This document shows positions 1,069 to 18,210 of a stretch of 43,009 bases of DNA, in pieces; positions within the stretch are counted from its first letter, which is position 1, and each line of letters starts with the position of its first letter. The position numbers and the translations under genes were made by a program. The DNA is from Halonatronum saccharophilum DSM 13868 (GTDB lineage Bacteria > Bacillota > Halanaerobiia > Halobacteroidales > Halobacteroidaceae), in assembly GCF_000517025.1 (NCBI RefSeq), contig NZ_KI912096.1, positions 62,252-105,260 of the forward strand, read 5' to 3'. Under the pieces are notes generated by a model. The model ran no database searches. It was not told where the DNA came from and saw only the letters and a program-made list of their open reading frames with translations.

Positions 1069-1298
1069 GAGTTGAAAGTTGATAATTGAGAGTTGAAAGA
1101 TTAAGAGCAAAGGCGTTTACGCTGACTAAGTTCTGATAAGAGCTGACAAGTTCCCGACAAGAGCATAAAGAATAAAAAACAAAAAAGGTCTAGTCAGATT
1201 TTAGTCATCTTTTGTCTAGGACCTTGTCTGAGCTAATGCCTTTAATCTTTTAATCCCCTGTTGATTCCAGACTCCTAATTCCCGATTCCAAAAAAATC
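1069..1298. repeat. Dispersed intergenic repeat, partly palindromic
   Basis: Non-coding. It begins with tandem copies of a TTGAGAGTTGAAAG-like motif. An imperfect inverted repeat follows (AAAGGCGTTTACGCTGAC near 1108 against GAGCTAATGCCTTT near 1243), and it ends with a TTGATTCCAGACTCC block (1261 onward). Related sequence occurs at about 2137-2196 and, partly inverted, at 20.6-21.05 kb. It looks like a dispersed, possibly MITE-derived element; no gene is seen. Confidence 0.55.
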
Positions 1299-1583
1299 TT
1301 GCATTCCACCCATAAATGGTGTATAATGTTAATAGTGTCAAAAGAAGCACCGCCTTATCAGTAATGGTTCCTATCTCCGACCTCTAAAGTAGCAAAAAAG
1401 AGGGGGGGTTCGCGCAAATGGATCATAAGGGAGATAGAGTGAGTATTAGTGAGGATGATAAAGCTAATCAGATCCAGATTTTCGCACTTTTTCTGAGATT
1501 TTCAGAGAAAATAGTTCAAAAAGTGGGGGTCCGCGCAAATGCCATTTTGAGCCCAGTAGTTATAAGGGTTCGCGAGGGATGCT
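1299..1583 (+). promoter_or_regulatory. CRISPR array 1 leader with consensus promoter
   Basis: The leader starts with an almost ideal sigma-A promoter: TTGCAT (1299-1304), a 17-bp spacer, and TATAAT (1322-1327). About 250 transcribed bases follow before the first repeat. It contains a small hairpin (CCTCT 1381-1385 with AGAGG 1399-1403) whose loop carries AAGTAGCA, and two copies of a GGGG-T-[TC]-CGCGCAAATG motif. It aligns along its whole length with the leader of array 2 (17583-17865), with the same promoter. An open frame through it (1418-1609) is not believed to be a gene. Confidence 0.85.
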
Positions 1584-1917
1584 CTAACAATAATCATAAT
1601 TCCGCTTAAGGAATTGACACAATGTAGCAGTTGAGGATAATAGTTTATCTCTGTCGCCTAACAATAATCATAATTCCGCTTAAGGAATTGACACAAGATC
1701 AAACATTCCACATACCTTTTCGGCCAACTGTCCAGCTAACAATAATCATAATTCCGCTTAAGGAATTGACACTGTACCCAAGGGGTTCCATCTCCTACAG
1801 GCTCACCATCTCTAACAATAATCATAATTCCGCTTAAGGAATTGACACAGCAACTGCTTTCAGCCAAGCAATTGTTTCGCCTTTGGCTAACAATAATCAT
1901 AATTCCGCTTAAGGAAT
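1584..1917 (+). CRISPR. CRISPR array 1: 4 spacers, 37-bp repeat
   Basis: Four full repeats at 1584-1620, 1658-1694, 1736-1772 and 1812-1848, and a truncated terminal repeat at 1887-1917. Spacers are 37, 41, 39 and 38 bp. The repeat begins CTAACAATAATCATAA and ends AAGGAATTGACAC. It contains the stem AATTCC/GGAATT, which would present a Cas6 site, and its last eight bases, ATTGACAC, would be the crRNA 5' handle (type III handles are usually ATTGAAAC-like). The truncated end and the leader position agree on + strand transcription. The array is very short for a locus with cas1-cas2. Confidence 0.97.
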
Positions 1918-1956: not shown

Positions 1957-2007
1957 AAAAGCCAAACACCATCACAAAGTAGCACTTGTGATGGTGTTTG
2001 GCTTTTT
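1957..2007 (+). terminator. CRISPR array 1 trailer hairpin/terminator
   Basis: A perfect 21-bp stem (1957-1977 with 1986-2006) with an 8-base loop AGTAGCAC, ending in a short T run, lies 40 bp after the last repeat. The stem contains GCCAAACACCATCAC and its complement. The same trailer follows array 2 (18160-18210) and, decayed, the orphan repeat (2290-2339), so it belongs to the array cassette and likely ends pre-crRNA transcription. Confidence 0.8.
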
Positions 2008-2486: not shown

Positions 2487-3479
2487 ATGGAGCGAATATA
2501 TATTACAAAACGGGGAACAAAGATATCTAAGAGGGGAAAGAGGATTATAGTAAAGGAGGAAGGAAAGAAGATAGCCGATATTCCTTTAATCAATGTAGAT
2601 CAAGTAGTTGCTTTAGGGAGTGTAGGTATAACAGGTGCAACTATACAGCTTCTCCTGAAGGAAGGAATACCAATTACATACCTATCTTACTATGGGAGGT
2701 TTAAAGGGCGCTTGGTTCCAGAGTATTCTAAGAATTCTATATTCCGACTTAGGCAGTTTAGTGCCTACAATGATGAGAAGGTTTCTCTAAGACTTACTAA
2801 GGCCTTTGTAAGGGGTAAACTGAAGAATATGAGAACTGTATTAATGAGAGATAAGAATGGAAAAGGAGAAGCGGGTATAAAAGAGGGGTGCAGTAGAATA
2901 AAGGGGTTTATAAAAAGCTTGGATGAGGTAGATGATATAGAGAAAATTAGAGGGTATGAGGGTATAGGGGCCAAGGTCTACTTTGAAAACTTTAAGTATC
3001 TCTTAAAGGATGGTTTTGAATTTGCTGGTAGGAATCGAAGGCCACCAAAGGATCCAGTCAACTCTCTATTGAGCTTTGGGTATAGCCTCTTGTTAAATGA
3101 TGTTATAACCGCCTTATACCTATCAAGTTTTGATCCTTATATAGGCTTCTTCCACTCTATAAAGCATGGCAGACCTTCCTTAGCCTTAGACCTGATGGAG
3201 GAGTTCAGACAGCCAGTAGTCGATAGGCTGGTCAAAGCTCTTTTAAATAAGGGAATGTTGACTTTAGAGGACTTTAGAATAAAGGAAGAAGGAGTACTCT
3301 TAACAGAAGAAGGGCGTAAACTATTCTTAACTGAATATGAGAAGAAGTTGGAATCTCTTATCGCTCACCCTAGTTATCAAGAGAGTATTAGTTGGAGAAG
3401 GTGTATAGAGGAACAGTCTAGGCTGTTGCGCAAAAGTATTGAAAAAGGTGAAGATTATATAGCTATGGGGGTTAGATAA
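2487..3479 (+). CDS. cas1: CRISPR integrase subunit Cas1
   Basis: 330 aa, normal for Cas1. With Cas2 it captures and inserts new spacers at the leader end of the arrays. The catalytic metal site is visible: the Glu in YEGIGAKVYF (about residue 155), the His in FFHSIKHGRPSLALDLMEEF (about 220), and the Asp/Glu residues that follow it. There is no reverse transcriptase or Cas6 fusion, so acquisition should be from DNA. The ribosome site AAAGGGGG precedes the ATG. Its stop overlaps the cas2 start by one base (TAATG), so the pair is translationally coupled. It lies between the collapsed array and cas2 and would serve both arrays. Confidence 0.96.
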   Translation: MERIYITKRGTKISKRGKRIIVKEEGKKIADIPLINVDQVVALGSVGITGATIQLLLKEGIPITYLSYYGRFKGRLVPEYSKNSIFRLRQFSAYNDEKVSLRLTKAFVRGKLKNMRTVLMRDKNGKGEAGIKEGCSRIKGFIKSLDEVDDIEKIRGYEGIGAKVYFENFKYLLKDGFEFAGRNRRPPKDPVNSLLSFGYSLLLNDVITALYLSSFDPYIGFFHSIKHGRPSLALDLMEEFRQPVVDRLVKALLNKGMLTLEDFRIKEEGVLLTEEGRKLFLTEYEKKLESLIAHPSYQESISWRRCIEEQSRLLRKSIEKGEDYIAMGVR

Positions 3480-3760
3480 TGGTTAATTTGGTGATATCCT
3501 ATGATATATCTGATGATAAGAGGAGAAATAGAGTCTTTAAGACTTTAAAGGATTATGGTCAGAGGGTACAGTATAGTGTTTTTAGGTGTGATATTGATAA
3601 GGAGATTTATTTAGATCTTAGAGATAAGTTGGAGGGTGTTATTAAGAAAGGGGAAGATTCTATACACTTCTACTCTCTATGTGCCGACTGTTGGGATAAG
3701 TCTTATATCTTAGGTGAAAAGGACAAAACTAATATTGAGGATAGGGTTATTATTATATAG
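3479..3760 (+). CDS. cas2: CRISPR integrase subunit Cas2
   Basis: 93 aa, the usual Cas2 size, with the ferredoxin-fold start NLVISYDISDDKRRNRVF that carries the conserved Asp after the first strand, followed by LKDYGQRVQYSVFRC. Cas2 forms the central dimer of the Cas1-Cas2 integration complex. It is coupled to cas1 by a one-base overlap. A hairpin (3761-3792) and a T-rich terminator-like segment (about 3841-3876) follow, and 211 bp separate it from the next gene, so the adaptation pair is probably a transcription unit separate from the kinase/effector genes. Confidence 0.95.
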   Translation: MVNLVISYDISDDKRRNRVFKTLKDYGQRVQYSVFRCDIDKEIYLDLRDKLEGVIKKGEDSIHFYSLCADCWDKSYILGEKDKTNIEDRVIII

Positions 3761-3877
3761 CTTAGTTTAAAACCTTAATGTCTTAAACTAAGGTTCTAAG
3801 TTGATAGTTCACAATTATAATTTAGATAGTAAAACAAAGAAGGCAGTTTATTCAGATGAATTGCTGTTTTTTTACTT
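3761..3877 (+). terminator. Hairpin and T-rich terminator-like stretch after cas2
   Basis: A 10-bp perfect stem (CTTAGTTTAA 3761-3770 with TTAAACTAAG 3783-3792) is followed by a weaker imperfect stem (GCAG... ATTC / GAAT... GCTG, about 3843-3866) that runs into seven and then seven more Ts. It likely ends the cas1-cas2 transcript. The second stem is imperfect, so confidence is moderate. Confidence 0.5.
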
Positions 3878-3971: not shown

Positions 3972-5042
3972 ATGGAGAAAGTAGGGGGTAAGAGCTCCAA
4001 GAAGATAGAGTCTAAGCTTGAAAGGTTAATTGATAAAGGGGTTAAGGTTGAAGATTTATATGAGAGTTTAGACCTGGATAAGGAGTCTTTTATAAAATTT
4101 TTAGAAGAGAAATTCTATGAAGAGAGGATATATATTTATGAGGATGGTTTAGAAGAAGGGATGAGAAGGGCCAACAAAACTTTACAAATGTTCTTAAAGG
4201 CCACAGAAGGTGATAAGGGCTACGTAAGAAGACGAGCCAACCTTATGGGTCAGATGGGTGATTTGATTTATTTCACGACTTCACATAAACAAGGGCTCAA
4301 AGGAGAAAAGGAGGCGATCTCCTGGTTAGAGAAAGCACTAGATGAAGATAGGGAGAACTACTTTGCTAAGGGGAGGCTAAAGGATTTAAAAAGGAGCCTA
4401 CTCTTGAGGCAGCAGATAGATAAGTTTAACCATGATGCATCCTCTAAGATATCCTTCTTAAGGGATAAGGTAAGAGGGATGATTAAGGAGGAAGAAAATA
4501 AACGTATAGAAGATGATTTGTTAGAGGTCTATGAGCAGATAGAGGTCATAGAAGGGATCTTTAGGTTGACAAAAGGGGAAGGTCCAAAGTTTGAAATAGT
4601 GAATATAGAAGAACTTTTGAAGAATTTAGTATTATCCTTTCCAGAGCTTGATGAGAAGGCATTATATATTAAAGGGGAATCCAGAGATATAGAGGTTGAT
4701 AGGAGTTATCTAATTATTGCTCTAAGAAATTTAATTAAAAATGCTTTGGATGCTTATCGAAGCCGAGGGATAGAGATCTCTGATAGGCCAATAATTTTGA
4801 CATTCAACTATGATAGGCTCACATTTAAGGTGAAGGATAAGGCAGGGGGGATTGAGGAGAAGCTCAAGGACAAGGATAGACTCTTCTCACCCTATGTTAG
4901 CTCTAAGGGCTCCTATCAGAATGTGGGTCTAGGGCTAGCTTTAGTAAAGGAGGCGGTCCAACTTCAAGGAGGAAGTATAGATTATTCTAATAAAGATGGT
5001 GGAGCAGAGTTTATTATAAAATTAGAGGAGGGTGAATTTTAG
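3972..5042 (+). CDS. Soluble sensor histidine kinase (kinase 1 of CRISPR island)
   Basis: 356 aa, no membrane segment. A helical N-terminal part (about 1-145) ends in a TPR-like helix pair (AISWLEKALDEDRENYF). An H-box follows, KFNHDASSKISFLRD, with the candidate phospho-His at residue 154, and then a HATPase_c domain: N-box NLIKNALDA (about 253-261), G1 DKAGG, F-box LFSPYVSSK and G2 VGLGLA. It is cytosolic, so it should sense an intracellular cue or partner. RBS GGAGGTGGA. It overlaps the response regulator by one base (TAGTG), and its last 280 residues resemble the second kinase at 6756. Two-component kinases are not standard type III-B genes. Kinase identity is sure from the motifs; its role in defence is inference. 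Confidence 0.85.
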   Translation: MEKVGGKSSKKIESKLERLIDKGVKVEDLYESLDLDKESFIKFLEEKFYEERIYIYEDGLEEGMRRANKTLQMFLKATEGDKGYVRRRANLMGQMGDLIYFTTSHKQGLKGEKEAISWLEKALDEDRENYFAKGRLKDLKRSLLLRQQIDKFNHDASSKISFLRDKVRGMIKEEENKRIEDDLLEVYEQIEVIEGIFRLTKGEGPKFEIVNIEELLKNLVLSFPELDEKALYIKGESRDIEVDRSYLIIALRNLIKNALDAYRSRGIEISDRPIILTFNYDRLTFKVKDKAGGIEEKLKDKDRLFSPYVSSKGSYQNVGLGLALVKEAVQLQGGSIDYSNKDGGAEFIIKLEEGEF

Positions 5043-6004
5043 TGAAAAGAGAAGATTTTAAGATTCTTTTTATGGATGATGAGATAGATATAACTGGACA
5101 AGCAAAGCTTGGTTACCAAAACTTAATAGATAGTGGGTATCAAGTAGATAAGTCTGATAAGATATCTGAGGTTATAGATGGCTTTGATGATAACTTTTAT
5201 CATCTTTATATCTTGGATATAGATATGCAGAAGGTGGATGATGTAATTAAAGGTACCGGAATGACTGTAGGTGAGACTCTAAAGCGCTTAAGTTCAATCT
5301 CTGAGATATTGATCTTTAGTGCCTTAGGTAATGTAGAGGACTGGTTTGAAGCAGCTAACTACGGCTTTAGGGGTTATGTACATAAGCAAGAAGGTATAGA
5401 GAGACTCTTAGAGAAGATCGATGAGTTTAGGCAGAACTATCAATTAGATGATACTTTCTCTTTAAGGATAGATAAGCCCAAAGAGGATAAGGCCCTACTT
5501 TATTATAAGGGTGGCGATAAAGTCTTAGAAAAAGATAGAATAGTAGATCTTTTAAAGACTAAGGGTATAAAGGAAGTTGATAAGGTCAGCAAGTTAAGTA
5601 AAGCACTAGAGAAAGTAAAGAAGGAAGATTATAAGATTATACTATTTTTTGCAGATACCTTCCCAAATAGGGGGAGAGTATATGAGCCATTAATGGAGGT
5701 GGCTAAGCTATCGCCATCCCCACATATTATAATAGGCGTTTATGGTGATGAAAGAAGTAGAAATGATATTATTCCCCTCGTTAATTTAAGGCCCTTTAGA
5801 TTATTAAATTTAGGATGGGCTAACTTAATGACACGTCTAGAAGAAGGGGTAGAGGATGCCTTGACTTGGTATGGAAGAAGAGAGATACTAGATCTTCCAG
5901 AAAAGGAAGGAGCAATATCTAAAGGCTTGGATAGTAGAGATTTTAAAGGATTAATAGAAGAGTCGGGTATTTTATTAGAGGAAGAGGGTGATGGTAATGA
6001 GTAA
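5042..6004 (+). CDS. Response regulator with tandem receiver-like domains, no output domain
   Basis: 320 aa, GTG start overlapping the kinase stop. The first receiver (about 5-130) keeps all key residues: acidic pair D12/D13, phospho-acceptor D59 in YILDIDM, S93 in IFSAL and K115 in YVHKQ. The second half (about 150-290) looks like a degenerate receiver (KIILFFADTF, then a PHIIIGVYG strand). No HTH, cyclase or other output domain is visible. A REC-REC protein with no output fits a phosphate buffer, a relay, or a regulator that acts by protein contact. Coupling to kinase 1 and overlap with the PIN gene suggest a signalling unit controlling nuclease activity; this is inference. Confidence 0.82.
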   Translation: MKREDFKILFMDDEIDITGQAKLGYQNLIDSGYQVDKSDKISEVIDGFDDNFYHLYILDIDMQKVDDVIKGTGMTVGETLKRLSSISEILIFSALGNVEDWFEAANYGFRGYVHKQEGIERLLEKIDEFRQNYQLDDTFSLRIDKPKEDKALLYYKGGDKVLEKDRIVDLLKTKGIKEVDKVSKLSKALEKVKKEDYKIILFFADTFPNRGRVYEPLMEVAKLSPSPHIIIGVYGDERSRNDIIPLVNLRPFRLLNLGWANLMTRLEEGVEDALTWYGRREILDLPEKEGAISKGLDSRDFKGLIEESGILLEEEGDGNE

Positions 6005-6698
6005 GGAGAAGATATTTATACCTGATACCAATGTACTGTTATTTTTAACATCATTTTATCTTGATGATGCCCCGGATAATTGGCAGAATGCTAAGGCAAA
6101 GAAGTTTTATAATAAGGCTAAGGATAGAATCTATATCCTTGATCTAGTTTGGGCTGAGTTTTTAGGTATCTTCCTCCATAAATCAATTAATTTTTCTCGC
6201 TATGATCTCTGGTATAGAAATAGAAGATCATTGATTGAGAAGTTGTTTAGTGAATTTATAAGGGAAGGGGTTAATTATATAAGTATTAATGATGGTGATA
6301 GCTATAAAGATTTATTTGAGATATCCCGTTCTTTTACTAATGGTCTTCATATTAAAGGTATAGCTAAAAAGATTAATGAAGATAGTGTTAGTAAACTGCA
6401 AAAAAAGATAAAAAAAGCAAAGAGATGGGGAGATAGAAATAAGGTCTGGTCGCTCCAAGATACGGTAAAGAGAATAAAAAGTGATGGAAAGATATTTGAT
6501 GGTATAGATTCTGCTTTAGCAGTCTATGCTTATTTGGTCTCCAAGGACAATCCTAAAAAAGAGGTTATATTAGTAACTGCCGATAAAAGCTTAGAGGTAG
6601 GGATTAATTACTGTAATAAGATTGAATATTCTTTTGCTAAAGAAGAGAAGTGGGATATAAAAGCAGTTGGCCTTTATAATGCAATTGAGTATTGTTAA
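5997..6698 (+). CDS. PIN-domain ribonuclease
   Basis: 233 aa from the chosen ATG at 5997, which has GAGGG about 8 bases upstream; upstream in-frame GTG/ATG codons at 5988 and 5991 are possible. PIN domains are metal-dependent RNases. The acidic set is present: D10 in IPDTNVLLF, Glu in VWAEFLG (about 51), Asp in DGIDSALAVYAY (about 173), and Asp in LVTADKSLE (about 200). It is larger than a VapC toxin because of a central basic helical insert (KLQKKIKKAKRWGDRNK). It overlaps the response regulator by 8 bases and no antitoxin gene is next to it. It could be the effector of the kinase module or an accessory type III nuclease. The function assignment is from motifs; the target is unknown. Confidence 0.8.
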   Translation: MSKEKIFIPDTNVLLFLTSFYLDDAPDNWQNAKAKKFYNKAKDRIYILDLVWAEFLGIFLHKSINFSRYDLWYRNRRSLIEKLFSEFIREGVNYISINDGDSYKDLFEISRSFTNGLHIKGIAKKINEDSVSKLQKKIKKAKRWGDRNKVWSLQDTVKRIKSDGKIFDGIDSALAVYAYLVSKDNPKKEVILVTADKSLEVGINYCNKIEYSFAKEEKWDIKAVGLYNAIEYC

Positions 6699-6755
6699 AT
6701 TTAGTGTCTTATTTAGATAGGATATATAGGCTTAATCTGTAAAAGGGGGAGAGCA

Positions 6756-8360
6756 ATGATAGTTAGTATTGACTGGGATAGGGGTAGTGATTTTAAAGAT
6801 AAAGCTAGGCAATCCTTTGCCCATGAAGATTATCTAAGTACAGTCAAAGTTCTAGAAGAGTATTTAGATAGGTACTTAGATGAAGTGGAGGGGCTATTTA
6901 CTAAAGAAAGGGAGGTTATAACCTCTTTAATTGTTTCTAGCATATCGCCTTCTAATCTAAAGCAGCTAAGATTATCATCTAAGAGAAGAGATCTAGTCTT
7001 TCAAAGTTTCTGTCAAGAGTATCTTAATGCTTATCTCAGTAGTTTGGAGGGTTATCTGCGGGATAAGGTGGATATTTTAGATATGCTAATGGTCTCTTAT
7101 TATAATCTAATTAAGGAAGGTGTCTATGATTTAAATAAAGTCGGAAGTTTTGAGATTTATAGAAGTGAGTACTTTGAGATTGCTAGGTGGTTTAAGGAAG
7201 AAGGTAAATTAAAGAGCTGGAGTGAGGCAAAGCTTGAGAATCTGATTCGTTATAATATAGAAATCATATTTAAGAAATTTACAGAAGTTAGGTGCCAATC
7301 CCTTAAGCAGATGGAGGTTCAAATTAAAGGAAAATTAAGGGGGCTTCTCTCTAGTTTTCTCTCTACCTTCACCCCAACTTTCTCTGAATATCTCTTTATT
7401 AAGCAGGTACTAGTGAATATATATGATGAACGCCAGAATTTTAGGAGAAAGGGGTGGGATAGGTATCAGAATATAAGAAATACAGAGTGGCTTATAGATA
7501 TATTCTTGGAATTTACTCAAGGTAATGAGGAGTATAGAGATGTAAGGGGAGATCTAATGAATTTGATGGCCGATATAACTTACTTTTTCAGTGAAAATCA
7601 AGGTGATAGAGGAAGAAGAGAGAGAAGGGCAATCAAATGGTTAGAGAGAAGTTTAGAGGAATTTTCTGATAATCGCTTTACTGAAAGCAGGATCAAAGAG
7701 TTAAGAAGGAATATAACTACAAGAGATCAGATCAATAAGTTTAGACATGATACTATAAATAAGATCCACTTTCTGCGTGAGAACCTAAGCCTTCTCCTAG
7801 CAGAAGGTAGGTCTCAAGAAGAGATGAAAACTGATATAAAAAAACTTATCCAAGAGGTAGAGGATATAGACCTTCTCTTTAGAGTTACAAAAAGGGAAAG
7901 CCCTAAATTTGAAGTATTTAGCCCAGAAGAGATAATAAAAGAGATAGAAGCAAATCTTCCTTCTAAGCCTAAACTTTCTCTAACCTTTAAGGGGGAAGAG
8001 AGGGAGATTGAAGGTGATAGGGGCTACTTTAAGATAATCTTGGAGAACTTAATTGAAAATAGTCTTGAAGCTTATAAAAGGATTGGGGTTGGTCCAGAAG
8101 CTTCTCAGGTCATAGTCGAGGTAGACCCTCAAAGTATGGAGTGGAAAGTTATAGATAATGCAGGAGGTATTCCAGAAGAATTTCAAGAAGGTAATAAATT
8201 ATTTGAGCCTTATATAAGCTCTAAAGGAGTTTGCCAAGATGTAGGCTTGGGGTTGGCCCAGGTATCTGCCGCCGTTGAGGTACAAGGTGGAGAGATAGAT
8301 TATAGTAGTGATTCTAAAGGTACCGAGTTTAGAATTAAGATCCCTTTAGAGGAGTATTAG
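6756..8360 (+). CDS. Soluble sensor histidine kinase (kinase 2 of CRISPR island)
   Basis: 534 aa. Residues about 240-534 are homologous to kinase 1: a helical segment, a TPR-like pair (AIKWLERSLEEFSDNRF), H-box KFRHDTINKIHFLRE with H331, then HATPase_c with N-box NLIENSLEA (about 431), G1 DNAGG, F-box LFEPYISSK and G2 VGLGLA. The extra N-terminal 230 residues are all-helical with no membrane segment and no family I recognise; this is probably the distinct sensor. RBS AAAGGGGGAGAG. It sits 57 bp after the PIN gene. Two divergent kinases around one regulator suggest two inputs, or a kinase/phosphatase pair, acting on one REC protein. Confidence 0.84.
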   Translation: MIVSIDWDRGSDFKDKARQSFAHEDYLSTVKVLEEYLDRYLDEVEGLFTKEREVITSLIVSSISPSNLKQLRLSSKRRDLVFQSFCQEYLNAYLSSLEGYLRDKVDILDMLMVSYYNLIKEGVYDLNKVGSFEIYRSEYFEIARWFKEEGKLKSWSEAKLENLIRYNIEIIFKKFTEVRCQSLKQMEVQIKGKLRGLLSSFLSTFTPTFSEYLFIKQVLVNIYDERQNFRRKGWDRYQNIRNTEWLIDIFLEFTQGNEEYRDVRGDLMNLMADITYFFSENQGDRGRRERRAIKWLERSLEEFSDNRFTESRIKELRRNITTRDQINKFRHDTINKIHFLRENLSLLLAEGRSQEEMKTDIKKLIQEVEDIDLLFRVTKRESPKFEVFSPEEIIKEIEANLPSKPKLSLTFKGEEREIEGDRGYFKIILENLIENSLEAYKRIGVGPEASQVIVEVDPQSMEWKVIDNAGGIPEEFQEGNKLFEPYISSKGVCQDVGLGLAQVSAAVEVQGGEIDYSSDSKGTEFRIKIPLEEY

Positions 8361-8474: not shown

Positions 8475-9224
8475 ATGAAAGATTACCTATTCTTATTGGG
8501 CGGTAAGGACTTAGAGATGGTAGAGATAAGGAAGATTCTCGAGAATGAAGGGTTAAATTTTATAGATAAGGACTTAAGCTGGGGAGCAAAGCTTAGCCAT
8601 TATAAGGAAGAGATAGGAGAGATAACTGAAGATAAAACCATTGTTGGAATTGAGCTTTTAAAGGATATGGAGGTGGGTCAGGAATATATAGAGGTAGACC
8701 ATCATAACCAGAGTACAGATAAGCCTTCATCTATTGAGCAGATAGCAAAACTCTTAGATATAGACCTTAATAGGTTTCAGAGGCTGGTAGCAGCTAATGA
8801 TAAGGGGTATATAGATGCAATGAAGGATCTTGAAGCAACTAAAGAGGAGATAGAAGAGGTAAGGCTTAGAGATAGAAGGGCTCAAGGGGTGAGTCGAGAG
8901 GATGAGAGGTTGGCCCGAGAGTCTATAGAAGATAACAAGAAGATCTATGGAGATCTAGTAGTCGTTAAGGCCAAGACCGACAAGTTCTCTCCAATAGCAG
9001 ATAGGCTCTATCCAACTGAGAAGCTATTGATCTATACCGATAAGGAGTTGACCTACTATGGTGTGGGAGCAAGGGAGTTAGGTGAGCGATATATGAAGGA
9101 GTATGGAGAGGAAAAGGTCTACTATGGAGGGGGTGATGATGGATACTTTGGCTTTGGCAAAGGGGCTTTTAGTAGTGAGAAGATAGAAAAGAGGGTAGAG
9201 GAGGTAATCGAATTTGGAGGATAA
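8475..9224 (+). CDS. DHH-like phosphoesterase (candidate SAM-AMP hydrolase, NrN-like)
   Basis: 249 aa from ATG 8475 (GGTGGG five bases upstream; a GTG at 8460 is possible). It has the DHH signature IEVDHHN (D75-H76-H77), an AANDKGY motif typical of DHH region III, and a C-terminal YYGGGDDGYFGFG that recalls the GGGH loop of DHHA1 domains. The usual first motif (HxxPDxDA) is not obvious; the N-terminus reads LLGGKDLEMVEI. It overlaps the CorA gene by 11 bases. In CorA-type III systems known elsewhere, a DHH-DHHA1 protein (NrN) degrades the SAM-AMP second messenger, so this gene is the natural candidate for that off-switch. It is shorter and more divergent than DHH-DHHA1 proteins, so catalysis and substrate are inferred. 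Confidence 0.7.
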   Translation: MKDYLFLLGGKDLEMVEIRKILENEGLNFIDKDLSWGAKLSHYKEEIGEITEDKTIVGIELLKDMEVGQEYIEVDHHNQSTDKPSSIEQIAKLLDIDLNRFQRLVAANDKGYIDAMKDLEATKEEIEEVRLRDRRAQGVSREDERLARESIEDNKKIYGDLVVVKAKTDKFSPIADRLYPTEKLLIYTDKELTYYGVGARELGERYMKEYGEEKVYYGGGDDGYFGFGKGAFSSEKIEKRVEEVIEFGG

Positions 9225-11190
9225 TAAGCTAAATAGTTATCACATCTTTATGTTCCCTTTTAAATGGGACTATAAGGCAGAGGATAAAGCTTTAAATGAG
9301 ATAAGCTTTGAGAAGAGAACGAGTGTAGAGAAGGTACAAGAGATCTTAGAAGAGGGTGAATGGGAAGAGGGAGAATTTGATGTAAATAAAGAGGATAGAA
9401 ATTATAATGAATATGTCTACTTCCATGAGCATGTCAGAAGGGTAGTCTACAATAATAAGGATAATAGGGTTACGAAGTACTTTTACTATGAGGGTGGCGA
9501 GAATGGTAAGTATAATATTACTATTAAAAAAGGCGATAGGTGCATAAAAAGTAATTTAGATAGTATAGATGAGGAAAACAAATTAATTTTTGGCTATGAT
9601 CACCTTTATTTATATAAAAAGAATAACAAAAAAGAACTTTGCATATTTGATGGTCTAATGGCTGAAGAGATTGATGAAGAAGTTTTAAATGATTATGAAA
9701 AAATTGAGTTAAAGGATGTAAAGATATCTATAGAGGATGAAAAAAAATTAATACTAGAAAAAGATAGCGAAGTAATAGTTAGAACTGATAATATCAAGGA
9801 AAAACTATATTATAGTTTAGAATTGGATGGGGTAGCATTAAGGCTTTATGATACTGGTATAGGGGTCTTATCTTACCATCTAAAAAACAGTAGGTATAGC
9901 AAAAAAGAGGATATCTTGAAGATAAATGAATATGGTAGGAGGATATATCCTCAATACTTACCTATTAATAAAGTAAAAAATTCTTTTCTGGCAGACAGGT
10001 TAGAGCTAAAGATGGATAAGAAGGATCCTATCTGTGAAGATTTTGAGGGGGGTTGCGGTCCTTCTGATGATTATGAACTTGGGAGATTATCTAAAACGGT
10101 TATGGACCTACTTGGAGACAAATTTAGAGAGAAAGATTTTATAGGTAAAAGTGTGAAAAAAGGTGAGGTTGTTATCTGTCCAGTGATTGATGATAGAATG
10201 TTTACTATCTCTTGGTATCTAAATGATGAAATAGCTAATGAATTAAAGCGTTCTGGTTATAGAGGAGAATACAAGTACTTGAAAGATGATTTTTGGCATA
10301 GATATACATTTGTAGATGGTGGGGATAAGAGCTGCCACCATCGAGATATGTTCAAGGACTTTAATAGAGATATAACTTACGAAAGATGGGTGGATTATGG
10401 TAGCTTTTTTGGTATAACTAGATACTCTTTTGTTTTTTTAGGGTACGAATCTGACTTTAATAATGATGTTATATTAACGCATATAAGGACAATGTACTAT
10501 CAATTGGTAGTTCTAGCCTTAGTGCAGAGGGCATCTATATTAAGGTTCTCTGAAGAGGTCTTTAATATTTCTGAATTGGAAGAGAAGAAAAATATCTACA
10601 ATCTGGTTGATAGGATTAGGGAGTTGCACAAGCATTATATACAATTTATAAATAAGATCTACTTTAGGGATATTACAGCCCAAGAGCAGGGGGCTGAACT
10701 TTATAACAAGTTATTGCAAGCAATGGATACCGAAAGGGAAATAAAAGATTTGGACAATGAGATAGATGAATTGCATAAGTATGCTACTCTTATAGAAGAG
10801 AATGAAAGAAATAAGAGGTTAAATTGGTTAACAATAATAGGAGCTTTATTTGTAATACCTTCTTTCTTCACAGGATTTTTTGGAATGAATATAGTCGATA
10901 TAAATAATGAGTTATTTACATCGGATGGTCCTTTGACATTAGGTAGGGTTTTGTCAGCGCCTTCATTTTGGGATTGGGCATTCACATATCTAGTATTACC
11001 AGCAACTCTTATTGGATTTTTTATTTGGAGATTAAAGGACTGGTTATATAACTTTTATAGATCTAAGAAAAAGGTAGGAAATGTATTGTTCTATCTATTA
11101 ATATTTATAAGTTTTTTAGTATCATTAGTTGGAATTGAAACTCTGTTTTCCTTCATAAATAAATTCATCAAATGGATATTAAGGAGTTGA
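9214..11190 (+). CDS. CRISPR-associated CorA-type membrane effector
   Basis: 658 aa, TTG start overlapping the DHH gene, with GAGGAGG upstream. A large soluble N-terminal region (about 1-540), ending in a long coiled helix (about 440-535), precedes a CorA-like membrane part: TM1 with FFTGFFGMNI carrying the GMN selectivity motif at residues 557-559, TM2 (about 590-612), and an extra hydrophobic segment near 625-650. CorA proteins form pentameric channels. In CRISPR loci they act as membrane effectors that respond to SAM-AMP made by Cas10. No CARF domain protein is in this locus, so this is the likely main effector. The order DHH-corA-cmr1 with minimal spacing supports co-expression. Ion specificity cannot be read from the sequence. 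Confidence 0.85.
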   Translation: MEDNKLNSYHIFMFPFKWDYKAEDKALNEISFEKRTSVEKVQEILEEGEWEEGEFDVNKEDRNYNEYVYFHEHVRRVVYNNKDNRVTKYFYYEGGENGKYNITIKKGDRCIKSNLDSIDEENKLIFGYDHLYLYKKNNKKELCIFDGLMAEEIDEEVLNDYEKIELKDVKISIEDEKKLILEKDSEVIVRTDNIKEKLYYSLELDGVALRLYDTGIGVLSYHLKNSRYSKKEDILKINEYGRRIYPQYLPINKVKNSFLADRLELKMDKKDPICEDFEGGCGPSDDYELGRLSKTVMDLLGDKFREKDFIGKSVKKGEVVICPVIDDRMFTISWYLNDEIANELKRSGYRGEYKYLKDDFWHRYTFVDGGDKSCHHRDMFKDFNRDITYERWVDYGSFFGITRYSFVFLGYESDFNNDVILTHIRTMYYQLVVLALVQRASILRFSEEVFNISELEEKKNIYNLVDRIRELHKHYIQFINKIYFRDITAQEQGAELYNKLLQAMDTEREIKDLDNEIDELHKYATLIEENERNKRLNWLTIIGALFVIPSFFTGFFGMNIVDINNELFTSDGPLTLGRVLSAPSFWDWAFTYLVLPATLIGFFIWRLKDWLYNFYRSKKKVGNVLFYLLIFISFLVSLVGIETLFSFINKFIKWILRS

Positions 11191-11194
11191 TTAA

Positions 11195-12310
11195 ATGCCA
11201 AGGTTGAATGTTAAGTTAAAGCAACACACCCCTATGATCCATTTTCAAGCTGAACAGAAGGGTGCTACTTTAAGAGCTACTGAGTTAAAACCTAAGTTGG
11301 ACAAGTTTCTGATTGATAAGATGAGTGCTAATGGGTCTGATAGTTATAAGAAATATTTAATTGGTTATAAAGAAGGTAATAAAAATGATGGTTCTTCTGA
11401 TATTATGTCATTAAACTATAAAGTTAGAGTTCTGAATCCTATATCTTGGACGAGAGAGAAGATTGATGATAAATATCCTTTGTTTTTTGCTAACATGGGT
11501 GAGGGTAAGGATAAAGAGTTTACCTTCTGTAAAGAGTTAACGTTAGAGTTTTTTAGTTTAAAAAGTGATTTAATAGAGAATATAAGAGATAATTTAGCCC
11601 AATTTTTAATGTATAATAATTTTGGGACTAGACAGTCAAAGGGGTTTGGTTCTTTTTATATTGATCCATCAGATGATTTATACGAGGAGAAGAAACTAAG
11701 GTATCAATTTGATGTTTCCGTAGGTAAAGGTCTGGATGAACTTGACTCATCTAGGAAAGTTTTTGAAGAAATAGAGGTGTTCTATAATTCGATGAGAAAA
11801 GGTCTTAATTATAATAAGTTTGATCCTATGATAAAGAAGTATTGTGATTTTAAAAAGATAAAGTGGGATAAACAAGTTATAAAAGAGAGGTATTTTAATG
11901 AAAAGAAGAAGCATGGTTATAATGAAGAAAATCTATTAATGAAAGATCTTTTTGGGTTATCGGTCGAAGAAAAGTGGATTAATCAAAAACCAAGGGGAAA
12001 GATTAGTAAAGAAGATGTTAATGAGAATGTTACAAGGTTTAAATCCCCTATATTATTTAAGCCGATTAAGTTATCTGCAAAAAAATATAGAGTCTATTTT
12101 GAGGCTTTTGAGATTAATAAGGGTTTCTTAGGTACAGAGTTTAAGATTAAAAATTGGGGGAAAGGCGATTTGAGATTAAAGATACCTGAAGAATTTGATT
12201 TCAATGATTTTTTCGATTATATCTTTAATAATGATATTAATTATGGGGACGCAACTGGGGTTTATAAAAAAATCAAGGATAATTATAAAATAGGTGATAA
12301 TAATGGATAA
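11195..12310 (+). CDS. cmr1: Type III-B RAMP protein Cmr1
   Basis: 371 aa. It begins NVKLKQHTPMIHFQ and carries the RAMP glycine-rich loop GTRQSKGFGSF (about residues 145-155), as in Cmr1-type proteins, which cap the 3' end of crRNA in the Cmr complex. It follows corA by four bases with AAGGAG upstream and overlaps the cas10 start by 8 bases. The classic EIRGSxLKG motif is replaced by TLRATELKPKLDKFL, which I associate with the CorA-linked III-B branch, so the subtype assignment rests partly on gene order. Its C-terminal half is lysine-rich and divergent. Confidence 0.82.
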   Translation: MPRLNVKLKQHTPMIHFQAEQKGATLRATELKPKLDKFLIDKMSANGSDSYKKYLIGYKEGNKNDGSSDIMSLNYKVRVLNPISWTREKIDDKYPLFFANMGEGKDKEFTFCKELTLEFFSLKSDLIENIRDNLAQFLMYNNFGTRQSKGFGSFYIDPSDDLYEEKKLRYQFDVSVGKGLDELDSSRKVFEEIEVFYNSMRKGLNYNKFDPMIKKYCDFKKIKWDKQVIKERYFNEKKKHGYNEENLLMKDLFGLSVEEKWINQKPRGKISKEDVNENVTRFKSPILFKPIKLSAKKYRVYFEAFEINKGFLGTEFKIKNWGKGDLRLKIPEEFDFNDFFDYIFNNDINYGDATGVYKKIKDNYKIGDNNG

Positions 12311-13976
12311 AAAGTATATTGGAGTTACCATTGGGCCAATAATTAAGACGTTAAACAATTCTAAAAAGACAGGCCAACTTTGGGGTGGTAGTTACATTTT
12401 TTCTTATCTGATGAAGAATATCATTTCGATGGTTAAAGACAAGGGGTTAGCTAAGAATATCATATTACCTTATGCAGAAAAGGATGAGGTATTTAATGAA
12501 AAGTTAGGCGTTGGACGACTTCCAGATAGGTTCATATTTGAGGCAGAAGATAATGCATTTGAAGATATGGGAAAAGTGGTAGAAGGGGTCTTAAATAATT
12601 TAGCAGAAGAGATTAGCGAAGAAATTTCTAAAGATAAAGAGAAGGTTAAGACCTTCTTAGATGAGTATATACAGATATACTATTTAGAGAAAGAGCTAGA
12701 AGATAGTTCTAATCCTATTTTGGAGTTATCACCCCATTTAGATATCTTGGAATTGAATGAGAAGGTAGTTGCCAAAGAAGAAGAAAATTACTTAATGGAG
12801 TTTTTGAAAAATAAAACTGTAAAGAAGAGTTTTCTAGTAAAAGATGCTTTTAAAAAAAATGAAGTTAAAACTCTTAATTTCAAGAAAGATAAAGAGACTG
12901 GCGAACTAAAAGCATATAATAAATCTGAGATGAATATAAAGTCAATACCCGAGATTGCAGTATCAGGAACTGAACTGGATGAAGAGGATATAGCTAAGGT
13001 AGCTTATAAAGCTCAAAAAGAAGATAAAGATTTTTATAAAGTATTGAAGAGGGAATATCCAAAGATAAAGTTGAATAAATATCACAAATATATAGCAATT
13101 GTACAAGCAGATGGCGATAATATAGGGAAGGTAATTAAGAATATAGATAAACTTTATGGAGATGAAGATCTTAATCAAATGAGCCAATATGAATTCTTCT
13201 CAAAAAAACTCTTCGATTATGCTAAAGATGCAGTTAAGATTATAAAAAGCTATGGTGGTTTTCCCATCTATGCAGGGGGAGATGATCTACTATTCTTTGC
13301 TCCTATAGTAGGAAAGAAGTCGAATATCTTTGAAATGTTGGATAGCATATCTGATGAATTTAACTCTAAATTTCAAGTAGAGATTCAAAGTGATACTTTG
13401 AAGAAGAAGCCGTCTCTATCCTTTGGCTTGTCTATCTCTTATTATAAATATCCATTATATGAAGCATTAAATAGTGCATTAGGGCTTTTATTTGGTGAAG
13501 CAAAGAGTTTTAAGTCTAAAGATAAAGGAAAGGATGCAATTGCTTTTAAAGTTTTAAAGCACAGTGGTCAATACTATGGTGCTACAGTTGGAAAGAGTAG
13601 TGACTCATATGATAAGTTCAAAAAGCTATTGAAAAAAAATATAAATGATAACAATTTCTTAAGCTCATTGCAGTATAGAATACAGGAAGATAAGGTATTG
13701 ATTAGTGAAGCTTTAAATAGAGAAGGTGGAAATTTAACTGCTTACTTTGACAATAACTTCGATGAAGATGCTCACGAGGAAGCAGGAGAGTTTTTAGAGG
13801 GTGTAAAGGAATTAATTGAAGTAACTTATGAGGAAGTAATCACTAATGAAGATAATAATAAAAGCAAACAAGATGGAGATGAAAAGAAGAAAATTGATAC
13901 TACCTTCATTGATATAGTTCATTCTTATTTGAGGTTTATTAAGTTTTTAAATGTAGAGGAGGGGGAAAATGCCTAA
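12303..13976 (+). CDS. cas10: Type III-B Cas10 (Cmr2), GGDD present, HD domain absent
   Basis: 557 aa from ATG 12303 (AGGTGAT upstream; the longer GTG start at 12294 is less likely). Cas10 is the large signalling subunit. The first palm-like strand AIVQADGDNIGKV and the nucleotide-polymerising motif YAGGDDLLFF (GGDD at about 325-328) are intact. The N-terminus begins directly with VTIGPIIKTLNNSKKTG, and I see no HD nuclease domain, so the complex should signal rather than cut DNA through Cas10. With CorA and a DHH protein next door, the likely product is SAM-AMP rather than cyclic oligoadenylate; that is inference from context. It overlaps cmr1 and cmr3 by 8 bases each. Confidence 0.92.
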   Translation: MDKKYIGVTIGPIIKTLNNSKKTGQLWGGSYIFSYLMKNIISMVKDKGLAKNIILPYAEKDEVFNEKLGVGRLPDRFIFEAEDNAFEDMGKVVEGVLNNLAEEISEEISKDKEKVKTFLDEYIQIYYLEKELEDSSNPILELSPHLDILELNEKVVAKEEENYLMEFLKNKTVKKSFLVKDAFKKNEVKTLNFKKDKETGELKAYNKSEMNIKSIPEIAVSGTELDEEDIAKVAYKAQKEDKDFYKVLKREYPKIKLNKYHKYIAIVQADGDNIGKVIKNIDKLYGDEDLNQMSQYEFFSKKLFDYAKDAVKIIKSYGGFPIYAGGDDLLFFAPIVGKKSNIFEMLDSISDEFNSKFQVEIQSDTLKKKPSLSFGLSISYYKYPLYEALNSALGLLFGEAKSFKSKDKGKDAIAFKVLKHSGQYYGATVGKSSDSYDKFKKLLKKNINDNNFLSSLQYRIQEDKVLISEALNREGGNLTAYFDNNFDEDAHEEAGEFLEGVKELIEVTYEEVITNEDNNKSKQDGDEKKKIDTTFIDIVHSYLRFIKFLNVEEGENA

Positions 13977-15048
13977 ATATATGATAAGGTTAAAGCCACT
14001 TGGAGAGTTCTTCTTTGGTGGTGAAGAGGGATTTGAGGACAAAAAATGGGGAAGATCTGAAGATAATCAAACTAATATAATCAAGTCTAGGCGTTTCCCA
14101 CAGCAGACTGCTCTTTTAGGGATGCTTAGAAAAGAGGTTCTTATACAGGATGATGAGTTTGAATTGAAAGCTTCTTTCAATTATAAAGACAAAGAATGTA
14201 AAAGGATGAAAAGTTTAATAGGTAAAGGAAGTTTTAATATAGAGAATAGTAAGCAATCTTTTGGATTGATAAATAGTATTTCACCGTTATTACTCACAAA
14301 AAAAATTGATGAACGCCATTTTTATATGCCAACGCCACGAGACCATAGTAAAAAGGGTCATGGTGAGAAGAAAGAAAAAATGAATACCTCATATTCTCCC
14401 TTTGAAAGGGAAGAAGGTGAGACAATTAGAACCAATTTTGGTGAAATAAAAGCCTTTAAAAAAGGTAGTTTTGATGCTAAAGAAGGTTTGAGTGACTCTT
14501 TTATAGATTTAACTGATAAAAAGAAGATTATAAAGTCTGAGAAGAGTGGTAGCGATGAAGGTATCTTCATTAATTTTGAAAGGGTAGGTATTGAAAAGAA
14601 GGGTGAAAAAGATGCATTCTATAAGCAAAGTTTCTATAAATTGAATAAAGGTTTCGAATTTGTCTTCTTTGCCGATGTTGATACTCCTTTAAAGTCTAGC
14701 ATAGTAGAGTTAGGTAAGGGGAGGTCAACCTTTAAGATGGAGGTTGAAGAGATTGATATAAGTTACAAAGACATTGTTGGAGGATTGAATAATGAAAGTG
14801 ATAAAATTATCTTAACAAGTGATGCTTATATTGAAGAAGATATAGATAAGGTGATAGACTTCTCAATTAAAGGAAGTATATCCTTTAGAAATATAAAGAC
14901 TGATAAGAGGCTTATTAGGTCAAAGAAGAAGTATAACTTTTGGCAACGAGGGTCGGTAATCTACTTAAAAGATGAAAAAAAAGAAGATGTAATTGAAAAG
15001 ATTAGAAAGGAAAATTTAAACAAGATAGGCTATAATAAATTTGTATAG
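13969..15048 (+). CDS. cmr3: Type III-B RAMP protein Cmr3
   Basis: 359 aa. The N-terminus YMIRLKPLGEFFFGGEEGF matches the Cmr3 pattern (xLxPLxxxFFxxG). Next comes SRRFPQQTALLGMLRKEVL, the family's xFPxPxTxxGxLR region. Cmr3 pairs with Cas10 and binds the crRNA 5' handle. The ATG overlaps the end of cas10 by 8 bases, with GAGGGGG as ribosome site. It ends 12 bases before cmr4. The length is normal. Confidence is high from both sequence pattern and position. Confidence 0.88.
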   Translation: MPKYMIRLKPLGEFFFGGEEGFEDKKWGRSEDNQTNIIKSRRFPQQTALLGMLRKEVLIQDDEFELKASFNYKDKECKRMKSLIGKGSFNIENSKQSFGLINSISPLLLTKKIDERHFYMPTPRDHSKKGHGEKKEKMNTSYSPFEREEGETIRTNFGEIKAFKKGSFDAKEGLSDSFIDLTDKKKIIKSEKSGSDEGIFINFERVGIEKKGEKDAFYKQSFYKLNKGFEFVFFADVDTPLKSSIVELGKGRSTFKMEVEEIDISYKDIVGGLNNESDKIILTSDAYIEEDIDKVIDFSIKGSISFRNIKTDKRLIRSKKKYNFWQRGSVIYLKDEKKEDVIEKIRKENLNKIGYNKFV

Positions 15049-15060
15049 GAGGAGATATAG

Positions 15061-15891
15061 ATGAAAATTGATATTTATAATATAAGAGCGTTGACCAATA
15101 TGCATGTAGGTAGTGGTGATGTTAACTTTGATATTATTGACAATCAGGTACAAAGAGATGTAGTCAGTAAATTTCCGACAATTAATTCTTCGAGTTTAAA
15201 AGGGGCATTGAGAGAGCATTTTGATAGTAAAGAAGGATTTGCATCAGTAGTTGAGATATTTGGAGGTAAAAAAGAGAAGGAAAAGGATAATATAACTGGG
15301 ACACATAGATTTTTTAGTGGGAATCTTTTATCTTATCCAGTTAGAAGTAATAAGCGTCCATTTTTTAGAGCAACCTGCCCTATGATCATAGAGGAGTTTA
15401 TATCTACTTTGGATAATTTCTCTTTAGAGTATGATTTGAAGGATGAATTAGAAGAGTTTGGCAATTTGTTTGATGAGAGTTTTGATGAGAGTGATGAAGA
15501 AAAAGTATTAGTCTTCGAAGAGAGTCTTGATGGAGCAGTTATAGAAGATAAGGAAGCAGAATACAATGATTTTTCAGAAGTTAAAGCCTTAGAGGGTTTA
15601 TTTGGTGAAAATATAGTGTTGTACTCAAATGAAGATTTTAAAGATTTAATGGATGAACTGCCTGTAATAGCTAGAAATAAGCTTGAAAATGGAGAGAGTA
15701 AGAATCTTTGGTATGAAGAGGTGGTGGCAAGAGAGAGTAGATTCTATTGTGTAATTATAGATTCAAGCAAAAATGATAATAATGATTTTGAGAAAGCCTT
15801 AGAATCAGATATAATTCAAATCGGGGCCAACGCCTCCATCGGTTATGGGTATACTAAATTCAATAAGATAGTTGGTGGTAGCAATGGGTAA
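15061..15891 (+). CDS. cmr4: Type III-B backbone RAMP nuclease Cmr4
   Basis: 276 aa. Cmr4 forms the helical backbone and cleaves target RNA at 6-nt steps. Visible marks: ALTNMHVGSGD at the N-terminus, IIDNQVQRD with D27 in the position of the catalytic Asp of characterised Cmr4, FPTINSSSLKGALREHF (the conserved IPGSSLKGALR motif), and the C-terminal GANASIGYGYTKF glycine loop. The residues around 140-180 are strongly acidic. It follows cmr3 closely with GGAGGAGAT and overlaps cmr5 by 8 bases. Confidence 0.93.
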   Translation: MKIDIYNIRALTNMHVGSGDVNFDIIDNQVQRDVVSKFPTINSSSLKGALREHFDSKEGFASVVEIFGGKKEKEKDNITGTHRFFSGNLLSYPVRSNKRPFFRATCPMIIEEFISTLDNFSLEYDLKDELEEFGNLFDESFDESDEEKVLVFEESLDGAVIEDKEAEYNDFSEVKALEGLFGENIVLYSNEDFKDLMDELPVIARNKLENGESKNLWYEEVVARESRFYCVIIDSSKNDNNDFEKALESDIIQIGANASIGYGYTKFNKIVGGSNG

Positions 15892-16309
15892 GAAGAGGAT
15901 TGAGAATTATATTCCAAAGGCTATAGAAGTTATAGAGAAAGAGTTTAAAGGTGAGTCAATACCAAAGGTTTATAAGAGTTATATATCCTCCTTTGGTGCG
16001 AGTATAGTACAGAGTGGTTTAAAGCCTACCCTTGCTTTTTATGAGAAGGATGATAATGTTTCTCAAGGTGATAAAGGGTCTAAACATGATAAAGGTCCTA
16101 AACATGATAGAAGTAGACTGAGTAGGATGATATTGAAGTTGATTGATGATAGTGAAGGCTCCTTGCTTAGATATGTAATCGAGGAGGAGGAGCAGGGAAA
16201 GGATGGAAGGAGTTTAAGGGAAAAAATTAAAGATGCTGCTATAGCTATAAAGTTAGCTCTAAGAACCTTTAAATTGTCTGAAGATAGTGGTGGTAATGAT
16301 GAAGGGTAA
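15884..16309 (+). CDS. cmr5: Type III-B small subunit Cmr5
   Basis: 141 aa from ATG 15884 (GGTGG just upstream; a TTG at 15872 is also in frame). It is a helical protein with the Cmr5 pattern YKSYISSFGASIVQSGLKPT (about 30-49) and a C-terminal IAIKLALRTFKL helix. Cmr5 forms the inner filament that lines the target RNA. A short hydrophilic insert with a repeated DKGSKHDKGPKHD sequence follows the conserved part. It overlaps cmr4 and cmr6, in the tightly coupled operon. Confidence 0.88.
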   Translation: MGKKRIENYIPKAIEVIEKEFKGESIPKVYKSYISSFGASIVQSGLKPTLAFYEKDDNVSQGDKGSKHDKGPKHDRSRLSRMILKLIDDSEGSLLRYVIEEEEQGKDGRSLREKIKDAAIAIKLALRTFKLSEDSGGNDEG

Positions 16310-17471
16310 TTATAGTGGGAATTTGGGCTGGTTATTTCATAATGATTACTATCGTAAGAATGATTTGAGTACCGTAATCAATAAGGATTGGCTTAAAATT
16401 AACTATGAGGAAGAAGATAAAAAGATTAAAGCTGAAATAAATCGTGTGCTAGATAAAAAGAATAAACAATTATTAAGCTTTAAGTTAAAAGGAAGAAAAA
16501 ATGATAATATAGGTAAGCAGAAGATTGAATGTAAGACTATCTATCCTGGTCTTCTAATTGGAAGCGGGTTAATTCATGGTATCGGAGAGAAGGAAGATTT
16601 CACTATAGGTTTTCAATTTGATCATACTAGTGGGTTGCCTATTATCCCAGGGTCTTCTGTTAAAGGGCTTTTAAGGAGTGTGTTTCCAGAAGATGGGGAT
16701 GTCTATAAGGAAGAGAAAGAGGAGTATATAAGGTCGCTTATAGAAGATATCACTGAAGTTCAGGTAGATATAGAGTCTTTAAGAGATGAAATATTTGAAG
16801 GTAGACTTAAGGATGGAAAGAGGATGCCTCTTGCAAAGCGTGATATATTCTTTGCTGCTCAGGTAATTAAAGGGGATAGAGATAATATGGTATTAGGTGA
16901 GGACTATATAACTCCACATGGAGATCCCCTTAAAGATCCACAGCCATTGAAGTTTTTAAAGGTACTACCAGATGTTGTCTTTGAGTTTAACTTTGATTTG
17001 AAGGATAGTAATTTAGGGTTTAGTAAGAAGGATAAGTTAAAATTATTTAAAGATATAATCCTAGATTTTGGTGTAGGGGCCAAGACTAATGTAGGCTATG
17101 GATATTTTGATAGGGATTATACAGATAAGATGATTAGAAAGAGGGAGGAAGAGTTGGAAGCTAAGAAAGAAGAGGAAGCACGTAAGAAGAGAGAAGCAGA
17201 GTTGGCAAAGATGAGTGAGTTAGATAGAAGGTTAGCTACAGTTTTTGATGACCCTAACATAAATGAAGTAGAGAAAGAGTTAAAGGAGTTATTTGATGAT
17301 CTCGATGAATTTGGTGAAGAAGATAAAATGAAAGTAGCAAAGTTCTTAAAAGATGGATATTTGAGGGTGGAGGCTGAGAAAGAAGAGGCTAAGTGGAGTA
17401 AAAAATTTGGTAAACCAAGCAAGAGACAGAAGAAGAAGATTAAGAAGATAAAAGGTATTTTAGGTGAGTAG
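16296..17471 (+). CDS. cmr6: Type III-B RAMP protein Cmr6 with C-terminal coiled-coil extension
   Basis: 391 aa from ATG 16296 (a second ATG follows at 16299). The RAMP core spans about 1-275: a Gly-rich GLLIGSGLIHGIG, IPGSSVKGLLRSVFP, DYITPHGDPLKDPQP, and C-terminal FGVGAKTNVGYGYF. Cmr6 caps the crRNA 3' end of the complex. An additional 115 residues follow: a highly charged coiled coil (about 280-310, KREEELEAKKEEEARKKREA) and a helical Lys/Glu-rich tail ending in basic KKKIKKIKG. This tail is beyond the usual Cmr6 and could bind RNA or a partner. A terminator follows at 17484. Confidence 0.9.
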   Translation: MMKGNYSGNLGWLFHNDYYRKNDLSTVINKDWLKINYEEEDKKIKAEINRVLDKKNKQLLSFKLKGRKNDNIGKQKIECKTIYPGLLIGSGLIHGIGEKEDFTIGFQFDHTSGLPIIPGSSVKGLLRSVFPEDGDVYKEEKEEYIRSLIEDITEVQVDIESLRDEIFEGRLKDGKRMPLAKRDIFFAAQVIKGDRDNMVLGEDYITPHGDPLKDPQPLKFLKVLPDVVFEFNFDLKDSNLGFSKKDKLKLFKDIILDFGVGAKTNVGYGYFDRDYTDKMIRKREEELEAKKEEEARKKREAELAKMSELDRRLATVFDDPNINEVEKELKELFDDLDEFGEEDKMKVAKFLKDGYLRVEAEKEEAKWSKKFGKPSKRQKKKIKKIKGILGE

Positions 17472-17483
17472 TAAGAGTTAGAG

Positions 17484-17518
17484 GATCTTCGATAGTATTA
17501 TCGAAGGTCTTCTTTTAT
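17484..17518 (+). terminator. Terminator after cmr6
   Basis: An 8-bp perfect stem CTTCGATA (17487-17494)/TATCGAAG (17499-17506) with loop GTAT, extended by flanking pairs and followed by TCTTCTTTT. It lies 15 bp after the cmr6 stop and ends the effector operon before the array 2 leader. Confidence 0.75.
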
Positions 17519-17582
17519 ATTTAAGAGAAGAGAACCCTCTCTTTAATTCTTTCCCTGATAAGGAGAGGAGAGAAAAAATCTC

Positions 17583-17865
17583 TTGCATTCCATCCATAAA
17601 TGGTGTATAATGTTATCAGTGGCAAATGAAGTGCTATCTTATCGGTAATAGTTCCTATCTCTGACCTCTAAAGTAGCAAAAAAGAGGGGGGGCGCGCAAG
17701 TGGAGTATAAGGGAGATAGAGGGAGTATTGTTGAGAATGATGGAGCTAATCAGATCCCGATTTTTGCACTTTTTCTGATAATTTCAGCGAAAACAGTTCA
17801 AAAAGTGGGGGTCCGCGAAAATGCCATTTTGAGCCCAGTAGTTATAAAGGTTCGCAAGGGGTGCC
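17583..17865 (+). promoter_or_regulatory. CRISPR array 2 leader with consensus promoter
   Basis: TTGCAT (17583-17588), a 17-bp spacer and TATAAT (17606-17611), as in leader 1, then about 250 bp to the first repeat. The small hairpin with the AAGTAGCA loop (CCTCT 17665-17669, AGAGG 17683-17687) is conserved. Leader 2 aligns with leader 1 almost without gaps. Differences fall at all codon positions of the shared open frame, which argues for conservation as DNA/RNA, not as protein. Confidence 0.85.
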
Positions 17866-18159: not shown

Positions 18160-18210
18160 AAAAGCCAAACACCATCACAAAGTAGCACTTGTGGTGGTGT
18201 TTGGCTTTTT
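18160..18210 (+). terminator. CRISPR array 2 trailer hairpin/terminator
   Basis: The left arm 18160-18180 is identical to the array 1 trailer; the right arm 18189-18209 differs by one base that still allows a G-U pair. The loop AGTAGCAC is conserved, and a T run ends the stem. Confidence 0.8.

Follow-up and report, generated by a model that had tools for sequence, protein, structure and literature searches.

A soluble kinase, receiver and PIN-like gene cassette in a SAM-AMP type III-B CRISPR locus of Halonatronum saccharophilum, with a possible role in defence

Two-component proteins in defence and in type III CRISPR loci

Detocs is a defensive two-component system in which the effector, DtcC, is fused to a receiver domain. 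Among type III CRISPR effectors, Cam2 is the only one for which the effector census reports a REC domain, and the absence of a histidine kinase is remarked on there (PMC11229360). Cam2 is membrane-bound (TM plus REC), has no partner kinase and is a proposed nucleotide binder. In Marinomonas mediterranea, the kinase/regulator pair PpoS/PpoR controls the expression of type III-B and I-F systems (PMC8523701), and the SAM-AMP locus of Bacteroides fragilis holds a CRISPR-linked RNase of the PIN superfamily, NYN (PMC11346440). Neither histidine kinases nor receivers are mentioned in the 2025 classification text (PMC12669027), and HATPase and REC figure among the domain labels of predicted, untested systems in DefensePredictor (PMC13092281).

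The locus described here lies in a stretch of 43,009 nucleotides of H. saccharophilum DSM 13868, hereafter the window, and carries the genes K1, REC, PIN and K2 in this order (Table 1). No report of this set in a type III-B locus was found in the open-licence literature, in line with the original prediction, in which no standard type III-B locus was known to contain it. With Detocs the cassette has in common a soluble kinase, a receiver and an effector in a short operon, as well as the defence-island setting (see below); soluble sensor kinases with intact H, N and G boxes are found in both, a trait equally true of many kinases. Unlike Detocs, it comprises two kinases and one canonical receiver with a doubtful second domain, and its effector is a separate PIN-like ORF instead of the receiver-fused protein that defines membership. 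No Detocs model of PADLOC 2023 matched the cassette. The Detocs parallel, drawn already in the original prediction, is architectural only: it holds for the kinase/receiver/effector arrangement but not for the fusion of effector and receiver.

Cam2 is likewise a REC-domain protein of type III CRISPR loci, whereas the cassette has kinases and no membrane segment, and REC lacks the N-terminal membrane segment that accompanies the receiver in Cam2. PpoS/PpoR likewise comprises a histidine kinase and a response regulator, with effects on phage resistance and on a type III-B system, but the two are BarA/UvrY-like global regulators of expression and do not form a soluble cassette that includes a nuclease. 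The NYN gene of B. fragilis encodes, like PIN, an RNase of PIN-superfamily type and likewise neighbours NrN/CorA in a SAM-AMP locus; in contrast, the PIN protein has no NYN match in Pfam (E up to 10) and is coupled to receiver and kinase genes.

Table 1. Features of the cassette and its flanks (window positions)
Feature	Position	Strand	Evidence
cas1-cas2	2487..3760	+	Cas1 1.3e-102 (Pfam); Cas2-like 93-aa ORF at 3479
Terminator-like hairpin with T-run, between cas2 and K1	3837..3873	+	weak: 13/200 shuffles fold equally well
K1, soluble histidine kinase, 356 aa	3972..5042	+	Pfam HATPase_c 5.8e-15; boxes; Shine-Dalgarno
REC, receiver protein, 320 aa	5042..6004	+	Pfam Response_reg 8.2e-14
PIN-like probable RNase, 233 aa	5997..6698 (ATG 5997)	+	sub-threshold Pfam PIN_4/PIN; acidic motifs
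K2, soluble histidine kinase, 534 aa	6756..8360	+	Pfam HATPase_c 1.3e-13; K1 alignment 39%
NrN, DHH SAM-AMP phosphodiesterase family	8475..9224	+	PADLOC DHH_CorA 6e-137
CorA-type membrane effector	9214..11190	+	PADLOC CorA 1e-149
cmr1, cas10, cmr3, cmr4, cmr5, cmr6	11195..17471	+	Pfam, PADLOC
Terminator-like hairpin (15 pairs), directly 3' of cmr6	17480..17513	+	

The four genes and their products

The cassette consists of four intact ORFs, all on the forward strand, between cas1-cas2 and the NrN-CorA-cmr1-6 operon. K1 is preceded by a strong Shine-Dalgarno sequence (GGAGGTGG) and overlaps REC by one base (TAGTG), the last base of the K1 stop codon TAG opening the REC start codon GTG. REC and PIN overlap by 8 bases (ATGAGTAA) with the PIN start taken as ATG 5997, which was preferred over the possible start at 5988; gaps of 57 and 114 bases separate PIN from K2 and K2 from NrN, respectively. 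A 19-residue Kyte-Doolittle scan revealed no membrane segment in K1, REC, PIN or K2 (no value above 1.2, compared to 2.46 for CorA), and no transcription-output domain was detected in the cassette. Composition and codon use resemble those of neighbouring and host genes, a lack of contrast that leaves no trace of foreign origin either way.

Both kinases gave HATPase_c matches far above the Pfam cut-off, and inspection of residues showed that the N, G1, F and G2 boxes of each protein are intact, as are H154 in K1 and H331 in K2. The two proteins are 39% identical over their common part, i.e. the entire catalytic core and about 110 residues preceding it, and the N terminus of K2 extends about 180 residues beyond K1 as a helical region and putative sensor. 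As the K1–K2 pair scores 228 bits and the next most similar kinase of the same genome only 26 bits, K1 and K2 are considered paralogues of one rare type. The H-box fragments of K1 and K2 gave no HisKA-family match (Pfam, E up to 10), despite a His-Asp at the expected position of both phosphotransfer helices. Four residues after the phosphorylated His, K1 has a Ser (D-x-x-S158) and K2 an Asn (HDTIN, D-x-x-N335). In HisKA kinases, a Thr or Asn at this position supports phosphatase action; the difference suggests that K1 and K2 may act as opposed kinases, by an argument borrowed from HisKA, whose Pfam models neither protein matches. The original prediction had proposed 1-base and 8-base overlaps, soluble proteins, intact H, N, G and F boxes and homology of K2 to K1, all of which were borne out by the junction sequences, the hydropathy scan, residue inspection and the kinase alignment, respectively.

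Residues 7–126 of REC form a canonical receiver with D12, D59, S93 and K115, scoring 60 bits against a receiver HMM (reached by 0 of 2000 shuffles). The conserved residues of a two-component pair are thereby all in place, His in the kinases and Asp, S/T and Lys in the receiver. Conversely, residues 141–285 score 6.1 bits against the same model, a result that 6 of 2000 shuffles equal and that is generous even so, because the shuffles lack strand/helix rhythm. This region has no Pfam match, and the acid pair, S/T and K are all missing. The REC-REC architecture expected earlier is confirmed for the first receiver, but the C-terminal half is a doubtful second one, at best degenerate. No DNA-binding domain was found in REC, which, together with the translational coupling to PIN, makes protein contact rather than DNA binding its likely output.

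The PIN protein matches PIN_4 (E 0.0028, 18.4 bits versus a cut-off of 21.9) and PIN (E 0.06) below the curated Pfam cut-offs. It has four acidic motifs in the expected order (D10, E54, D168/D171 and D196), and their contexts are typical (IPDTN, LVWAEF, DGIDSAL and LVTADKS). Its earlier designation as a PIN nuclease is supported by the motifs, with a profile score short of the curated cut-off. Single-sequence AlphaFold2 models of PIN and REC were uninformative, with a pLDDT of 44.5 and 34.8, respectively.

The CRISPR locus and the search for relatives

Upstream of the cassette are cas6, array 1 and cas1-cas2, and array 2 follows cmr6. Cas10 shows no HD domain match and an intact GGDD at 324; an HD-less GGDD Cas10 with a conserved Asp is consistent with the SAM-AMP synthases that Chi et al. 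described (PMC10600005). Asp74 of Cas10, in a PDRF motif, is conserved with two other NrN-CorA loci (L043 and L046) and, matched by position, is presumably the counterpart of the acidic acceptor-site residue D70 in B. fragilis. The features of SAM-AMP type III-B systems are hence assembled here, i.e. cmr1-6, CorA, a SAM-AMP-degrading enzyme and an HD-less Cas10 with GGDD. NrN, CorA, Cmr1-6 and this type of Cas10 are common to the SAM-AMP type III-B CorA-1 cluster, to which the present locus adds K1-REC-PIN-K2 upstream of NrN. Just upstream of the window (contig 46059-60764), a PAPS-reductase-type gene, DUF4007, a cysteine-desulfurase-type gene, a HerA/TrwB-like ATPase and a GmrSD gene were found, and this phosphorothioation-type cassette points to a defence island. 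Terminator-like sites are located only before K1 and after cmr6, with none in the intergenic gaps between these genes, so that K1 to cmr6 may be a single transcript; the cassette and the NrN-CorA-cmr genes are probably co-transcribed.

The two flanking arrays have leaders (window 1290-1620 and 17574-17902) that share 86-89% identity along some 330 bases, so similar that the whole stretch from cas1 to cmr6 could be lost if they recombined. A hairpin element follows each array end, in three copies (window 1958-2005, with 20 pairs at 1958; 2270-2335; 18160-18210).

Relatives of the cassette were sought in several collections. The kinase profile found its own genome only, both among 59 genomes of the class and 299 of the phylum, where a few sub-0.01 fragments were far weaker than the K1–K2 pair. 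Three further groups, with 296, 200 and 190 genomes, yielded nothing credible, the latter two sets having no positive control. Eleven weak matches in the 296 genomes, which represent the phylum of the Prolixibacteraceae locus, were rejected; three of these loci were inspected and showed neither an F-x-H-D motif nor a kinase-like ORF. The PIN protein was likewise confined to its own genome (61 and 189 genomes). Matches to REC in 299 genomes were generic receivers, matches to K1 in plasmids generic kinases, and PHROG matches generic kinase and receiver parts; plasmids held no relatives of REC or PIN. Pattern scans, sensitive to close relatives only, gave no relative of the kinases in 85k species plus viral contigs, nor of REC or PIN in viral contigs.

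A scan for NrN returned five loci, three of the NrN-CorA-cmr type and two with solitary NrN. Kinase, receiver and PIN relatives are absent from all three other NrN-CorA-cmr loci fetched. A second NrN in the same genome (contig 146162-148379, 63% identical), followed by broken-CorA fragments, is found some 41 kb past the end of the window, where it adjoins a separate CRISPR locus with another repeat; this orphan pair has neither cmr genes beside it nor a K1-REC-PIN-K2 cassette. The cassette is thus an addition to this CRISPR type rather than one of its components. The solitary NrN-like genes belong to two alphaproteobacterial assemblies (L044:9989-10858 and L045:2712-3611), where the sequence retrieved around them matched neither CorA nor cmr, and a type III-B locus of Sulfurovum encodes a natural NrN-CorA fusion of 794 aa (L046:2747-5131).

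The cassette is real, intact and so far unique among the genomes searched. Within the reach of these searches, it shows the single occurrence that the original prediction had set as a refutation. With a single occurrence, conservation neither supports a CRISPR link nor excludes chance insertion. An ordinary two-component set could have come to lie, by chance, with an unrelated toxin-like PIN gene in the CRISPR island, without any link to immunity. Besides the single occurrence, the lack of the cassette in the three CorA-type loci and next to the orphan NrN/CorA pair agrees with such a placement, as does a composition that resembles neighbours and host, albeit this leaves no trace either way. 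Chance placement nonetheless appears rather unlikely in view of how tightly the kinase, receiver and PIN genes are coupled, the lack of a DNA-binding output and the likely co-transcription with NrN-CorA-cmr.

Possible roles of the cassette

The explanation we favour, with a probability of roughly 40%, is a two-component defence cassette of soluble proteins that forms part of a SAM-AMP type III-B operon. We infer a Detocs-like arrangement with the PIN RNase as output, riding on or feeding SAM-AMP type III immunity. The intact boxes, canonical receiver, gene overlaps and PIN motifs argue for this reading, as do the absence of membrane segments and of a transcription output, the terminator placement, the SAM-AMP locus, the defence island and the NYN precedent of B. 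fragilis. It is weakened by the single occurrence, the three other loci without the cassette, the sub-threshold PIN score, the uninformative AlphaFold2 models and the missing HisKA match. Of the defence or control module within a type III-B locus that was originally predicted, the location is borne out by the cas1-cas2 and NrN-CorA-cmr1-6 flanks, and an intact, soluble and probably co-transcribed cassette stands, but conservation lends it no support.

In the mechanism we propose, K2 would most likely sense an intracellular infection or CRISPR-activation cue via its extra N-terminal helical region. K1 and K2 would autophosphorylate on H154 and H331 and then set the phosphorylation of REC at D59, where K2, with its phosphatase-linked D-x-x-N, may hold REC off and K1, with Ser, may drive it on. 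REC would in turn hold or release the PIN RNase by protein contact.

Two further roles were weighed against this defence cassette. A CRISPR control unit, with phosphorylation adjusting the activity of Cmr, CorA or NrN and with PIN as the enzyme that trims crRNA or target RNA, would suit the position of the cassette at the head of the NrN-CorA-cmr operon. Precedents are the NYN RNase of B. fragilis, for which such trimming has been proposed (PMC11346440), and the Marinomonas kinase and regulator (PMC8523701), but the latter act on expression level as BarA/UvrY-like global regulators. As cas6 is already present for crRNA processing and other CorA-type loci manage without the cassette, control of CRISPR is judged unlikely. 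Alternatively, a second, stand-alone Detocs-like system might share only a promoter or the island with the CRISPR genes. Its sensor-kinase/receiver/effector logic is complete, and the defence island and the 114-base gap before NrN are compatible with independence; since no free-standing copy was found elsewhere, the effector is not receiver-fused and PADLOC gave no match, we consider this quite improbable.

Functional integration of the cassette with CRISPR is a plausible proposal. A far-reaching version, in which SAM-AMP type III-B immunity includes a His-Asp phosphorelay as a functional layer, with two opposed soluble kinases sensing infection or CRISPR activation and unleashing, via a receiver adaptor, the PIN RNase so that it joins CorA as a second effector, is for now a doubtful proposition. 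The cassette is small, and the SAM-AMP assays already available make it testable in E. coli. Found nowhere else in our search, it may represent a new wiring of phosphate signalling into CRISPR immunity. If so, the REC domain, a proposed nucleotide sensor in Cam2, would gain a counterpart that is truly phosphorylated. Type III CRISPR signals through nucleotides; were a phosphorelay to act from the same operon, a single immune response would combine two signalling chemistries.
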